Made by a program: the position numbers and the translations under genes. The notes beneath the pieces are model-generated. The model searched no databases. It saw only the letters and a list, made by a program, of their open reading frames with translations, and was not told where the DNA came from. This document shows positions 14,011-22,490 of a stretch of DNA of 64,000 nucleotides, piece after piece. The DNA is taken from the NCBI RefSeq assembly GCF_026151205.1, contig NC_087077.1:7307983-7371982 (forward strand), read 5' to 3'. This stretch comes from Bolinopsis microptera (taxonomy: Eukaryota > Ctenophora > Tentaculata > Lobata > Bolinopsidae). Each line of letters begins with the position of its first letter. Position 1 is the stretch's first letter.

Positions 14011-14443
14011 TGGGGACACGTTTTTGCTAGTAGTTTGCGACATTATTTTACGGGTATCGAATCTCGCGACTTCAACGAAGTCCTGGGGACACGTTTTCAA
14101 TAATTGATAATATTTTCAGCCCCTATCGTTTTAAGCATCGTTAGGGCTTTCCCAGAAACTAACTCTCATCATCCTAGGATAATCGTGTGTCGCACAGCAC
14201 CTCTTTCAGTAACGAGAGTAGTCGCATGCAGTCCAGAATGACGTGTACGTTTCGGTCACCTGTGGAAAAAGGAAGTGAGATATCAAAAATCTGAGAAAAA
14301 CCCGTTGGATAAAAGCCTTTCAGGTAGGTGCTAGTCAAGATTTCATCTCTTTAGACCTTAAGATGGCTTCTAACACCTCGTCAAAAGTTTTTAAAAGTAA
14401 ATTTTACTCGCGACTATCAAAAAACAACAAAAACGTGTCCCCA
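14011..14443. repeat. Terminal unit of the giant palindrome, left copy
   Basis: This ~433 bp unit starts with TGGGGACACGTTTTTG and ends near 14442 with the inverse (CAAAAACGTGTCCCC), so it looks like a MITE in its own right. A third copy of GGGGACACGTTTT lies at 14085-14097. The mirror-image unit is 22057-22490. Confidence 0.75.
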
Positions 14444-14874
14444 ATTTGCTTTTTTGAGCGCGCCCAGATCAGCGCACCTAGCTGATCTAGCTACTATGAA
14501 CACTGAACAGGCACACAAAAATATCAGTGAATATAAGTGATTTCGGTTATTGGAGTAATTTCATCGGAGCAGTCACATTTTTGATGGTGATTAATACTTT
14601 AATAACATTCCACAACAAGGCAACCATTAACTATGTAGTGTGTACCGTGTGCAGTGTGAAGTATAATATAGAGTTGGCATGAAGTTAACAGTTTACTTAT
14701 CACGAAGTTTAATTAGAAGATAAGGAAAATATTGTATTGTTATCTGTCAAAGGAATTTAATGTATTCTAACAACTTGTTCTTATAATAACTAATCGATGA
14801 ACCACATACAGGGTCGGTGTGAGTGTAAGAATTTGTGTGAGAAGATATATAGAGGAGCAAAATTCGACATCACT

Positions 14875-14992
14875 GGATACGGCCATACTCGGTTGAATAC
14901 ACCCCATCTCGTTCGATCTGGGAAGTTAAGCAACTGCAGGCCGGGTTAGTACTTGGATGGGTGACCGCCTGGGAATTCCCGATGCCGTATCC
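14875..14992 (+). rRNA. 5S ribosomal RNA gene, left-arm copy
   Basis: Full-length 118 nt 5S rRNA: a start of GGATACGGCCATAC and an end of GCCGTATCC form a perfect 9 bp closing stem. The internal Pol III promoter is preserved: box A-type GGGAAGTTAAGCA near 14927, intermediate element ACTTGGATGGG near 14951, and box C GGGTGACCGCCTGGG near 14960. A TTTT terminator follows directly. It lies within a palindromic mobile element and not in a tandem rDNA cluster. It points toward the palindrome centre, as does its mirror copy at 21287-21403. Sequence integrity argues it could be transcribed. Confidence 0.92.
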
Positions 14993-15061
14993 TTTTGTTA
15001 TATTTTCGAAGAATTGCTTTACTGAACAGAAGAATTGTGTATGGCTTTTACAGAATTGGGC

Positions 15062-15412
15062 ACTATCCGTCGCGGAGTAGAGTCCGCGGCGGAGCCGCCG
15101 GACTCCGAGCGGACTCCGGCGGTGCTCCGCCAAAATGTATTTACACTGGACTCGAGTACATTTTTGCGGACTCCGAGCGGAGCCGAGCGGACTCCGAGCG
15201 GACTTTAAAATCCGCCGCGGACTCCGAGCGGCTCCGCGGCGGCTCGGCGGAGTGTCCGCCGCGGACTAAGCCACTAGGCGGACTCCGGTCCGCCGCGGAC
15301 TCCGGCGGAGTGCTTGGCGGACTCCGCCGGACCTCTCCGCCAGACTTGAATCCGGCGGAGTCCGGCGGAGCTTGGACTCCGCTCGGAGTCCGCCGGACTC
15401 CAACAGAGTCCA
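15062..15412. repeat. GC-rich self-complementary CGGACTCCG array, left
   Basis: Dense irregular repeats of CGGACTCCGAGCGG and CCGGCGGAGTCC, each able to pair with its neighbours. The mirror copy is 18373-18725. The 100-160 codon open frames here exist on both strands and in several frames, as expected of a GC-rich simple repeat, and are not genes. Confidence 0.85.
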
Positions 15413-16087
15413 CTGACTTCCGACTTCCGACTTCCGACCCTCGGCTAAATTTGTCACGTGACATACAACATAGCCAATAGCATTTTGCGATATTGTGGTC
15501 AGATGAAAAGGTCGCTAGTGATAAACCTTAACCATTACCCTCACAGTCACAATGTCAATAGTGTACAACTCTAGTCCTAACTTTGACCCTATAATGTATA
15601 AACGTTGACCCTAACCCTCCACCAAACCGCCAGCAGCGAAATATCAATGTCATTGACTGGTCACGTGACCAAAACAATTTTTGTCATATTATCTCATATA
15701 GGGAAGCGTTTTTAGTTTTACCCTACACGTTGCATGTGGCGTCATTCGGCCGGATCCCAGCAAGCAAAAATACGTCGACCATCACAGGACGACGCCAGCA
15801 CTCTCTATGCTGGTCGAGCTCCGATCGTCCTGTGACGAAGTAAGGACGAAGCCTGAGGTCCTCAGGTAACATCGACCACCGATTGAAAATTCAGAGATTT
15901 TTTGACATAAAGGTCAAATGTAAAACTAAAATCTTGATGTTAATTGATTGACGACGCGACGTCAATTTTTGAGCACAGCGCGAGCGCATGCGGAAAAGGA
16001 CCGCGTAGCTAGTCAAGATGTTGATAAATATTTGGCTTGTGGCGCGATGTGTTGCTCTAAGTCTAACTATAGCTCTCTCGCTTGCAG

Positions 16088-16161
16088 TTACTGGGCCGCG
16101 CTCAGCCTGTCATTTCGCCTAATCTCTATTAAGAACATTAAAGCCTGGGGTCCTCAGGTAA
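16088..16161. mobile_element. 74 bp mini-transposon with 8 bp target duplication
   Basis: The segment starts TTACTGGGCC and ends CCTCAGGTAA. It is flanked by GCTTGCAG at 16080-16087 and 16162-16169, and is absent from the mirrored arm near 17700. A related 90 bp copy lies in the opposite orientation at 43693-43782 with its own 8 bp duplication, which shows that these are mobile units. Confidence 0.85.
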
Positions 16162-16499
16162 GCTTGCAGTAGCGCGCGACCGCCGGAGGCGGAAATGACC
16201 TGGTTAGCTAGGTAAACGCGATGTGCATTGTAGGATGAAATCCTACTAGCTGACGCCACTCGCAGCTGTGCTACTCGCTGTACGTCAGCGATCGAAATTT
16301 ATACGCGTATTACCCGTTAAGATGTGCCACCCGACGTGCCACACAATTTTTCTCGTTGCTCGTCGCACGTCGACGAACAACGAAGCTCGTTGCGACGCGC
16401 AATGAGCTGCCAGGCTAGGACATCGTCCTGGTCCAACAAATTTTGGCGAGCGATTTTCTCCAAAAATTTAATGAGGGCGCCTACTTCCACTCTGATATC

Positions 16500-20319: not shown

Positions 20320-21040
20320 ATAACTTGCAAGTTAACTTAAGAATACATTCTAGTTAATTTTAGGATACCTTGTACTTTGTAGTACTCTTCAAGGTAACTC
20401 CAGGATACCTTGTAGTACTCTTCAAGTTAACTTCAGGAAACCTTGCAGTACTCTTCAAGTTAACTTCAGGATACCTTGCAGTACTCTTCGAGTTATCTAC
20501 AGGATACCTTGCAGTACTCTTCAAGTTAACTTCAGGATATCTTGTAGTACTCTTCAAGTTAACTTCAGGATACCTTGTAGTACTATTCAAGTTAACTTCA
20601 GAATGTCTTGTAGTATTCTTCAAGGTAACTCCAGGATACCTTGCAGTACTCTTCATGTTAACTTGAGGATACCTTGCAGTACTCTTCAAGTTAACTTCAG
20701 GATACCTTGCAGTACTCTTCGAGTTATCTACAGGATACTTTGCAGTACTCTCCAAGTTAACTTCAGGATACCTTGTAGTACTCTTCGAGTTAACTTCAGG
20801 ATACCTTGCAGTACTCTTCGAGTTATCTACAGGATACTTTGCAGTACTCTCCAAGTTAACTTCAGGATACCTTGTAGTACTCTTCGAGTTAACTTCAGGA
20901 TACCTTGCAGTACTCTTCGAGTTATCTACAGGATACTTTGCAGCACTCTCCAAGTTAACTTCAGGATACCTTGTAGTACTCTTCAAGTTAACTTCAGGAT
21001 ACCTTGTAGTACTCTTCAAGTTAACTTAAAAATACATTCT
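20320..21040. repeat. 33 bp minisatellite, right arm
   Basis: Inverted counterpart of the left minisatellite. On the minus strand 20360-21019 stays open for 219 codons of an 11-residue repeat, the longest such run. A higher-order pattern is visible: a three-unit block containing GAGTTATCTACAGGATACTT recurs at about 99 bp spacing between 20720 and 20950. Confidence 0.9.
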
Positions 21041-21286
21041 AGTTAATTTTAAGCAGAATGTTTAAGATAGATCTTAGAATGAAACAAAAAAGCCCTTTTC
21101 AGACAAAACTTAGTAGCTATACTATTCTAAGCAATGTTATTCTGACATTTGGAAATATTTCCTTCCGTTTGAACATAGACTATATTGCTTAGGATAAAAT
21201 GATATTCTTAATAATCACTGCAATTCTGTAAAAGCCATACACAATTCTTCTGTTCAGTAAGCAATTCTTCGAAAAATATAACAAAA

Positions 21287-21403
21287 GGATACGGCACCGG
21301 GAATTCCCAGGCGGTCACCCATCCAAGTACTAACCCGGCCTGCAGTGCTTAACTTCCCAGATCGAACGAGATGGGGTGTATTCAACCGAGTATGGCCGTA
21401 TCC
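21287..21403 (-). rRNA. 5S ribosomal RNA gene, right-arm copy
   Basis: Mirror image of the 14875-14992 gene. Promoter boxes, the closing stem and the TTTT terminator are all intact. Two differences from the left copy are visible: one A fewer after AAGTTAAGC (117 nt against 118), and G for A in the CCCGRTGCC segment near the 3' end. Transcription would run toward the palindrome centre. Confidence 0.92.
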
Positions 21404-21773
21404 AGTGATGTTGAATTTTGCTCCTCTATATATCTTCTCACACAAATTCTTACACTCACACCGACCCTGTATGTGGTTCATCGATTAGTTATTATAAGAA
21501 CAAGTTGTTAGAATACATTAAATTCCTTTGACAGATAACAATACAATATTTTCCTTATCTTCTAATTAAACTTCGTGATAAGTAAACTGTTAACTTCATG
21601 CCAACTCTATATTATACTTCACACTGCACACGGTACACACTACATAGTTAATGGTTGCCTTGTTGTGGAATGTTATAAAAGTATTAATCACCATCAAAAA
21701 TGTGACTGCTCTGATGAAATTACTCCAATAACCGAAATCACTTATATTCACTGATATTTTTATGTGCCTGTTC

Positions 21774-21994
21774 TTGTCATACGTTGATTCACGATGTCAA
21801 TCCTTCGCAGCTCGGTGAGGCACAGTGGTGCATCTCGCCGAGCAACCGAAGGTTGCGAGAAGCATTATTTGATGCGCGCGCGACCCAGTAGTGCATCGCG
21901 CTACAAGTCATACGTTGTATGACCCGCCGCGCACGAAGTGCGCGGCTCCCCCTGTAGCGTCGAAACGACCGTGGGGGTCGCAACGTGATACAAG
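21774..21994. mobile_element. 221 bp TTGTCATACGTTG-family MITE
   Basis: It starts TTGTCATACGTTG and ends GTGATACAAG, and is flanked by CCTGTTC at 21767-21773 and 21995-22001. The left arm has the uninterrupted site (near 14500-14512), so this insertion is later than the palindrome. The interior contains a second TCATACGTTG start near 21906, G/C-rich inverted repeats, and the same CCGCGCACG block as the related element at 42523-43617. Confidence 0.85.
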
Positions 21995-22056
21995 CCTGTT
22001 CATAGTAGCTAGATCAGCTAGGTGCGCTGATCTGAGCGCGCTCAAAAAAGCAAATT

Positions 22057-22490
22057 GGGGACACGTTTTTGTTGTTTTTTGATAGTCGCGAGTAAAATTT
22101 ACTTTTTAAAAACTTTTGACGAGGTGTTAGAAGCCATCTTAAGGTCTAAAGAGATGAAATCTTGACTAGCACCTACCTGAAAGGCTTTTATCCAACGGGT
22201 TTTTCTCAGATTTTTGATATCTCACTTCCTTTTTCCACAGGTGACCGAAACGTACACGTCATTCTGGACTGCATGCGACTACTCTCGTTACTGAAAGAGG
22301 TGCTGTGCGACACACGATTATCCTAGGATGATGAGAGTTAGTTTCTGGGAAAGCCCTAACGATGCTTTAAAACGATAGGGGCTGAAAATATTATCAATTA
22401 TTGAAAACGTGTCCCCAGGACTTCGTGAAGTCGCGAGATTCGATACCCGTAAAATAATTGTCGCAAACTACTAGCAAAAACGTGTCCCCA
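22057..22490. repeat. Terminal unit of the giant palindrome, right copy
   Basis: Mirror image of 14011-14443, from AATTGGGGACACGTTTTTG inward end to CGTGTCCCCA at 22490. The GGGGACACGTTTT motif again occurs three times. Confidence 0.8.

Follow-up and report, generated by a model that had tools for sequence, protein, structure and literature searches.

In this study, we describe a family of foldback elements, A, in the genome of the lobate ctenophore Bolinopsis microptera, one copy of which lies in the 64,000-nucleotide (nt) stretch of DNA analysed here (the window, C6:7307983-7371982 of the assembly). Our results make it likely that A is a non-autonomous foldback DNA transposon which carries a host 5S ribosomal RNA (rRNA) gene in each of its inverted arms, and that this 5S cassette was captured, doubled by extension of the arms and spread by transposition. 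The dispersal and chromosomal relocation of 5S genes is a long-standing question. A testable possibility suggested by these elements is that ribosomal RNA genes could be carried to new places in a genome by DNA transposons.

The evidence for mobility comes from the other copies. In genome-wide searches covering 264,652,675 bases in 232 contigs, the arm 14011-15057 gave at least 61 matches, and family A has at least eight loci, namely the window and seven others in which paired arms contain the inner 5S part (Table 1); as the best 40 of 285 candidates were scored, these counts are lower bounds. The structural criteria of a foldback are found in A, with long inverted arms that make up most of the element and tandem repeats within them; in the copies of 4.5-5.1 kb, the arm pairs measure 1.8-2.4 kb (e.g., 575-2699 with 5132-2956 in L031). 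At both ends of all seven non-window loci, a 13-bp tip, CAACCCTGGCGCG (CAACCCCAGCGCG in L038), lies beyond the position equivalent to 14011, and the loci are flanked by target duplications of 4-5 bp (CTTAT, ATATT, GAATA, AATTA, ATATA, TTATA and GTAA). Across the wider clan of related foldbacks, duplications of at least 4 bp were present in 18 of the 18 copies with both flanks versus 31 of 306 mispaired flanks, and their length was 5 bp in 12 copies, 4 bp in five and 7 bp in one, within an AT repeat (this count omits the window, L046, L048, L050 (one end seen) and L072 (damaged right tip)). An earlier note on this DNA had weighed two options, namely that the structure is a transposon by which 5S genes spread, or that it arose when a 5S locus was inverted. 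A unique inverted segmental duplication was named there as an outcome that would speak against the transposon. The seven further loci, with inverted arm pairs, matching tips and small duplications, support the transposon and leave little room for the unique duplication. The two copies on C8 are 30 kb apart and 98% alike across 1.6 kb; the longer one (L036/L037) also contains a 566-amino-acid open reading frame (ORF) and a GIY-YIG ORF, which probably represent an inserted Penelope-like element. Viral contigs scanned with the 5S start gave 0 matches, and phage records compared with the whole element gave none.

In the window copy, the palindrome itself is real. Self-comparison pairs 14011-14502 with 22490-21997 (99.0% identity), 14505-15058 with 21773-21221 (98.6%), 15057-16088 with 18739-17701 (93.0%), 16174-16494 with 17666-17329 (89.4%) and 18738-19521 with 21228-20480 (87.6%), far above the longest inverted match of 31 nt in 20 shuffles of 13801-22700. 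The note had described these pairs as a block-by-block nest with sharp ends at 14011 and 22490. The inverted pairs exist, but they do not form one continuous nested palindrome, a candidate that was rejected because the nesting is due to three later insertions (15058-18738, 19524-19734 and 21773-21994), each with its own duplication. The largest of these, P1, is a later insertion of a separate transposon, since the homologous place in the opposite arm is uninterrupted and holds a single AGAATT, that is, an empty site; with P1 set aside, 14011-15057 and 18745-20088 form one arm. P1 stands for a second foldback family, present in many copies and marked by GC-rich subterminal repeats; its arm has at least 101 matches in the assembly (best 40 of 324 candidates scored). 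At the place homologous to the 222-bp insertion, the left arm reads CCTGTTCAGTGTTC, which resembles an excision footprint, as if a copy had once sat there and then left; partial matches of this 222-bp element also occur at 35528-35625 and 42524-42581. A coding-frame run PNPNPNP similar to that of the 211-bp element is found in the foldback relative L056. The ends had also been placed too far in, as the other copies run 13 bp further: the right tip of the window copy, one base short, reaches about 22502, and its left tip is missing. The window copy appears to be an ageing member of the family.

The two 5S genes of the window both face the centre of the element. Both are full length, as the note had it, and above the Rfam gathering threshold, but they are imperfect: compared with the 5S of the host array, the left gene has one substitution and the right gene a one-base deletion. 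Among the seven other loci, six have a 5S gene in both arms and the seventh in one (13 arms), its other arm being without a gene start, and the whole of family A holds 15 full-length genes and one partial gene. All 15 exceed the Rfam gathering score, six are letter-identical to the host tandem-array gene at C5 while the others differ, and the TTTT terminator is kept after 14 (the exception is the left arm of L038). The A arm and the units of the C5 array have 123 nt in common, which correspond to the gene and the T-run only. The region from -31 to -1 (AAATATA or similar, then AATTTCA) is common to dispersed and array 5S genes of the host with otherwise different flanks, and the genes of A, together with those of a second element, X, presented below, resemble it: for 12 full-length genes of A and 3 of X, only 10-75 of 127,938 background positions scored as high or higher, using a matrix built from nine host loci, of which three are near-identical. 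Four of the 19 rows scored (L033R, L034L, L034R and L038R) were mis-anchored and counted neither way; in L033R, L034L and L034R, the upstream sequence resembles that of the family. Since the -31 to -1 motif would not be in 5S RNA, a retroposed 5S RNA was rejected. An inverted unit of the C5 array was likewise ruled out, as the spacer is not shared.

The cassette is also found outside A. Three loci with a single 5S gene (L060, L061 and L065) have the upstream motif, the gene, the downstream border and the 33-bp repeats as in A, and the outer A arm is not shared. The comparison of 5S flanks that the note had called for came out in two ways, with only the gene and T-run in common with the array, and cassette borders and 33-bp repeats in common with these three loci. 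A longer stretch around L060 (L069) contains the inverted-repeat element X, whose ends are CACGGCTGTTC (at 1518) and GAACAGCCGTG (last base 4455). Inside it are one 5S gene, the 33-bp repeats and a middle domain that matches window 20040-20316 at 85% identity. The outer arm of A and the foldbacks L041, L039 and L056 had no match to X in L069, and none or nearly none (0-1) of the 33-bp words occur in L039, L041, L044, L049, L056 and L071-L074. Judged by these sequence comparisons, A is a chimera between the outer arms of a foldback clan without detected 5S and a cassette, made up of the 5S gene, the 33-bp repeats and the middle domain, that is common to the otherwise unrelated X; in the window, the presumed X-derived cassette starts just past the arm block 14718-14827.

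The combined pattern of upstream motif and gene start occurs at 28 places, of which 15 are in A loci and 13 were assigned to X by coordinates and letters. There are 17 places with the left end of X, and at 13 of these a 5S gene of this pattern starts 365-499 bp inside. A 33-base core pattern (at most 3 mismatches) detected 72 5S-like loci, a count in which the assembly may have merged array copies; by coordinates, 14 of these are in A and 10 in X (24 of 72), the right 5S gene of the window being missed because of its deletion. The target duplication of X is not clear because the flanks of the L069 copy prolong the inverted repeat. Two X copies at C6:3965203 and C6:3981227, 15 kb apart, in opposite orientation and with the same mismatches, are perhaps a large inverted duplication.

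The outer part of A connects it to related foldbacks without detected 5S, which have all or part of the outer 434 bp of the A arm at 86-96% identity (84% for L056). Some of these relatives form a group of short elements, mostly of 2.6-3.1 kb, and others are longer; an end pattern for the clan was found at 72 places in the assembly (control 0), and a tip-only pattern, hence less specific, at 75 (control 23). In the 12 non-A clan loci L039-L050, no Rfam family reached the gathering score. ORFs were listed in ten loci (at least 130 amino acids) and in L055, L056 and L071-L074, with L073 and L074 represented by single ends in one 7-kb stretch each; ten ORFs were compared with Pfam and the others judged by eye. 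Two of the ten matched, the GIY-YIG ORF in L037 and a hAT C-terminal piece in L056 (PF05699, E 4.9e-5). Pieces related to the latter occur at many other places (48 matches), so that it may be an inserted fragment; hAT elements usually make 8-bp duplications. By eye, we noted a reverse-transcriptase-like ORF in L071 and a zinc-finger-like ORF in L073.

The sequence of events that we consider most likely is that X-type DNA first carried a host 5S gene and that a foldback element then captured an internal segment of X. The inverted arms would next have grown through recruitment of internal sequence, as described for the arms of Galileo (PMC3573991), which would have put the 5S gene in both of them, and the composite element would have spread by means of a transposase supplied elsewhere. 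The 5S gene would be cargo that travels with its short upstream motif and terminator, and to judge from these letters it may be transcribable wherever it landed. Several points weigh against this proposal. No transposase was recognised in the A and clan loci examined by ORF listing, X was read to both ends in one copy only, the direction from X to A is one that we infer, and the window copy has no recognisable target duplication at its ends. In the C8 copies, the 5S genes are the most diverged (4-7 changes) and are decaying, and the two arms of the 10-kb copy differ at 1 of 874 flank sites versus 5 of 119 5S sites (p 0.0001). In the six-locus group without C8, the 5S varies at 3 of 119 sites versus 14 of 112 adjacent border sites (p 0.005), but the difference is gone when the C8 group is included (14 of 119 versus 16 of 112; both counts leave out L038R). 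The low variation in the six-locus group may come from constraint, conversion or recent capture.

The cassette could also have been born in the foldback A and then passed to X. A shared cassette by itself does not set the direction, but gene-bearing loci by pattern number 13 for X versus 8 for A, the cassette was not seen in the foldback relatives compared, and the middle domain, of which L069 has one, lies at the centre of A, in keeping with a second arm of A that is a secondary copy; we regard this reverse transfer as quite unlikely. A different question is whether the 5S gene serves the element itself beyond being cargo, e.g., as an internal RNA polymerase III promoter or as a site of exchange with host 5S. 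This idea would fit with the retention of the gene in at least one arm of all eight A loci and beside 13 of the 17 X left ends, and with the reduced variation in the six-locus group. The foldback relatives without 5S, however, have spread at more loci, the gene decays in the C8 copies and the reduced variation does not survive their inclusion, so that we give a role of this kind some weight while considering it unlikely.

Two further explanations would dispense with a mobile element. If the window copy were taken alone, its missing target duplication would agree with a one-off inverted duplication of a 5S locus through a hairpin or template-switch rearrangement, as in the alternative offered by the note. 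Unless they are assembly artefacts, the seven other loci, which lie at different sites and repeat the arms, the tips and the small duplications, together with a C5 array that has only the gene and T-run in common with A, make this hardly credible, and a unique segmental inversion was rejected because of the other copies. A false palindrome assembled from collapsed or chimeric reads is very improbable: the C130 copy, on a 22-kb contig, might be an alternative haplotype, but the same structure is present on five large contigs besides, where flanking duplications differ, and the arms of the window copy hold asymmetric insertions. We retain the reading of A as a transposon with a captured and doubled 5S cassette. 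We would extend it only tentatively, to the possible but less than probable case that X and the foldback A, two otherwise unrelated DNA transposon families, are vehicles of working 5S genes that scatter transcribed host copies across the chromosomes and account for about one third of the 5S loci of the assembly, and that exchange with array genes keeps them alike.

Among the open-licence PMC papers listed, none described 5S genes in the inverted arms of a DNA transposon. The nearest relatives in structure are other foldbacks. Galileo, a foldback-like element of the P superfamily in Drosophila, has very long inverted arms as A does, and tandem repeats in the arms of one subfamily, but it makes 7-bp duplications and copies with transposase are known (PMC3573991), whereas A has duplications of 4-5 bp, no recognised transposase and a host RNA gene in its arms. 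Tetris of Drosophila virilis, assigned to Mutator, resembles A in being a non-autonomous foldback, for which its authors found no autonomous partner, with arm tandem repeats that also occur outside the element; its duplications of 8-10 bp differ from the 4-5 bp of A, and the excerpted account mentions no RNA gene for it (PMC4079207). Cassandra and Ajax, which are terminal-repeat retrotransposons in miniature (TRIM), and SINE3 are retroelements whose promoter sequence, derived from 5S, lies in direct long terminal repeats (LTRs) or in short interspersed elements, Ajax having only part of the 5S gene and 5-bp duplications (PMC10886601). Possession of 5S-related sequence is their sole resemblance to A, which has complete 5S genes in inverted arms and not in direct LTRs; a TRIM/LTR element was ruled out for A because the 5S-bearing repeats are inverted. 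Dada elements are, like A, DNA transposons associated with multicopy small RNA genes, but they insert into such genes with 6-7-bp duplications, and Dada-U6 and Dada-U1 are said to be without terminal inverted repeats (PMC3706591); in A, the RNA gene is inside the element as cargo, and insertions are flanked by A/T-rich sequences of 4-5 bp.

The mobile elements with 5S in the papers listed are retroelements with a 5S-derived promoter, while A carries a complete host gene twice and X once. The A/X junctions suggest how a 5S gene passed between element families, and A would be a case where a single captured gene became two as the inverted arms grew.

Table 1. Features of the window copy of A (window positions) and locations of the other A copies (assembly contigs).
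Feature	Position	Strand	Evidence
Foldback element A, window copy	14011..22502	.	self-comparison, arm search, tip comparison
Outer left arm, common to foldback relatives without detected 5S	14011..14444	+	arm search (query 1-434), pairwise comparison
Arm block (arm positions 708-817), also in short 5S-less foldback group	14718..14827	+	sequence comparison
Promoter-like -31..-1 of left 5S gene, TATA-like and AATTC motifs, common to host 5S loci	14844..14874	+	sequence comparison, motif scoring
Left 5S rRNA gene, then TTTT terminator	14875..14993	+	Rfam gathering threshold, 104.4 bits
Insertion P1, a different multicopy foldback transposon	15058..18738	.	AGAATT at 15052-15057 and 18739-18744
33-bp tandem repeats, inner left arm, broken at 19524-19734	18939..20088	+	repeat search
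211-bp insertion, inverted ends, degenerate TTAGGG repeats, 9-bp duplication GAGTACTAC on both sides	19524..19734	.	repeat search, arm comparison
Final 33-bp repeats plus middle domain (85% identity with X in L069)	20040..20316	+	pairwise comparison
33-bp tandem repeats, inner right arm, inverted	20373..21027	-	repeat search
Right 5S rRNA gene	21286..21403	-	Rfam gathering threshold, 100.3 bits
222-bp insertion, CTTGT/ACAAG ends, CCTGTT duplicated on both sides	21773..21994	.	arm comparison
Outer right arm, mirror of 14011-14444	22059..22490	-	self-comparison
Right terminal tip CGCGCCAGGGTG, 1 base shorter than family tip	22491..22502	-	tip comparison
A copy	C11:15364865-15369370		arm search
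A copy	C3:95764-100367		arm search
A copy	C3:2779668-2784717		arm search
A copy	C3:20269127-20274129		arm search
A copy	C130:13264-18285		arm search
A copy, 10 kb (L036/L037)	C8:245506-255843		arm search
A copy	C8:286050-290187		arm search

Elsewhere in the window, 50608-51348 is a 741-bp self-palindrome (93%) that may be a further short foldback. The 10-bp unit ATATTACTGA forms near-perfect arrays at 35729-35844, 38197-38622 and 42215-42522, two of which adjoin inverted repeats. At 4025-5338, an intronless open frame of 437 amino acids is similar to carbohydrate sulfotransferase 15, and its best named relatives are ctenophore proteins.

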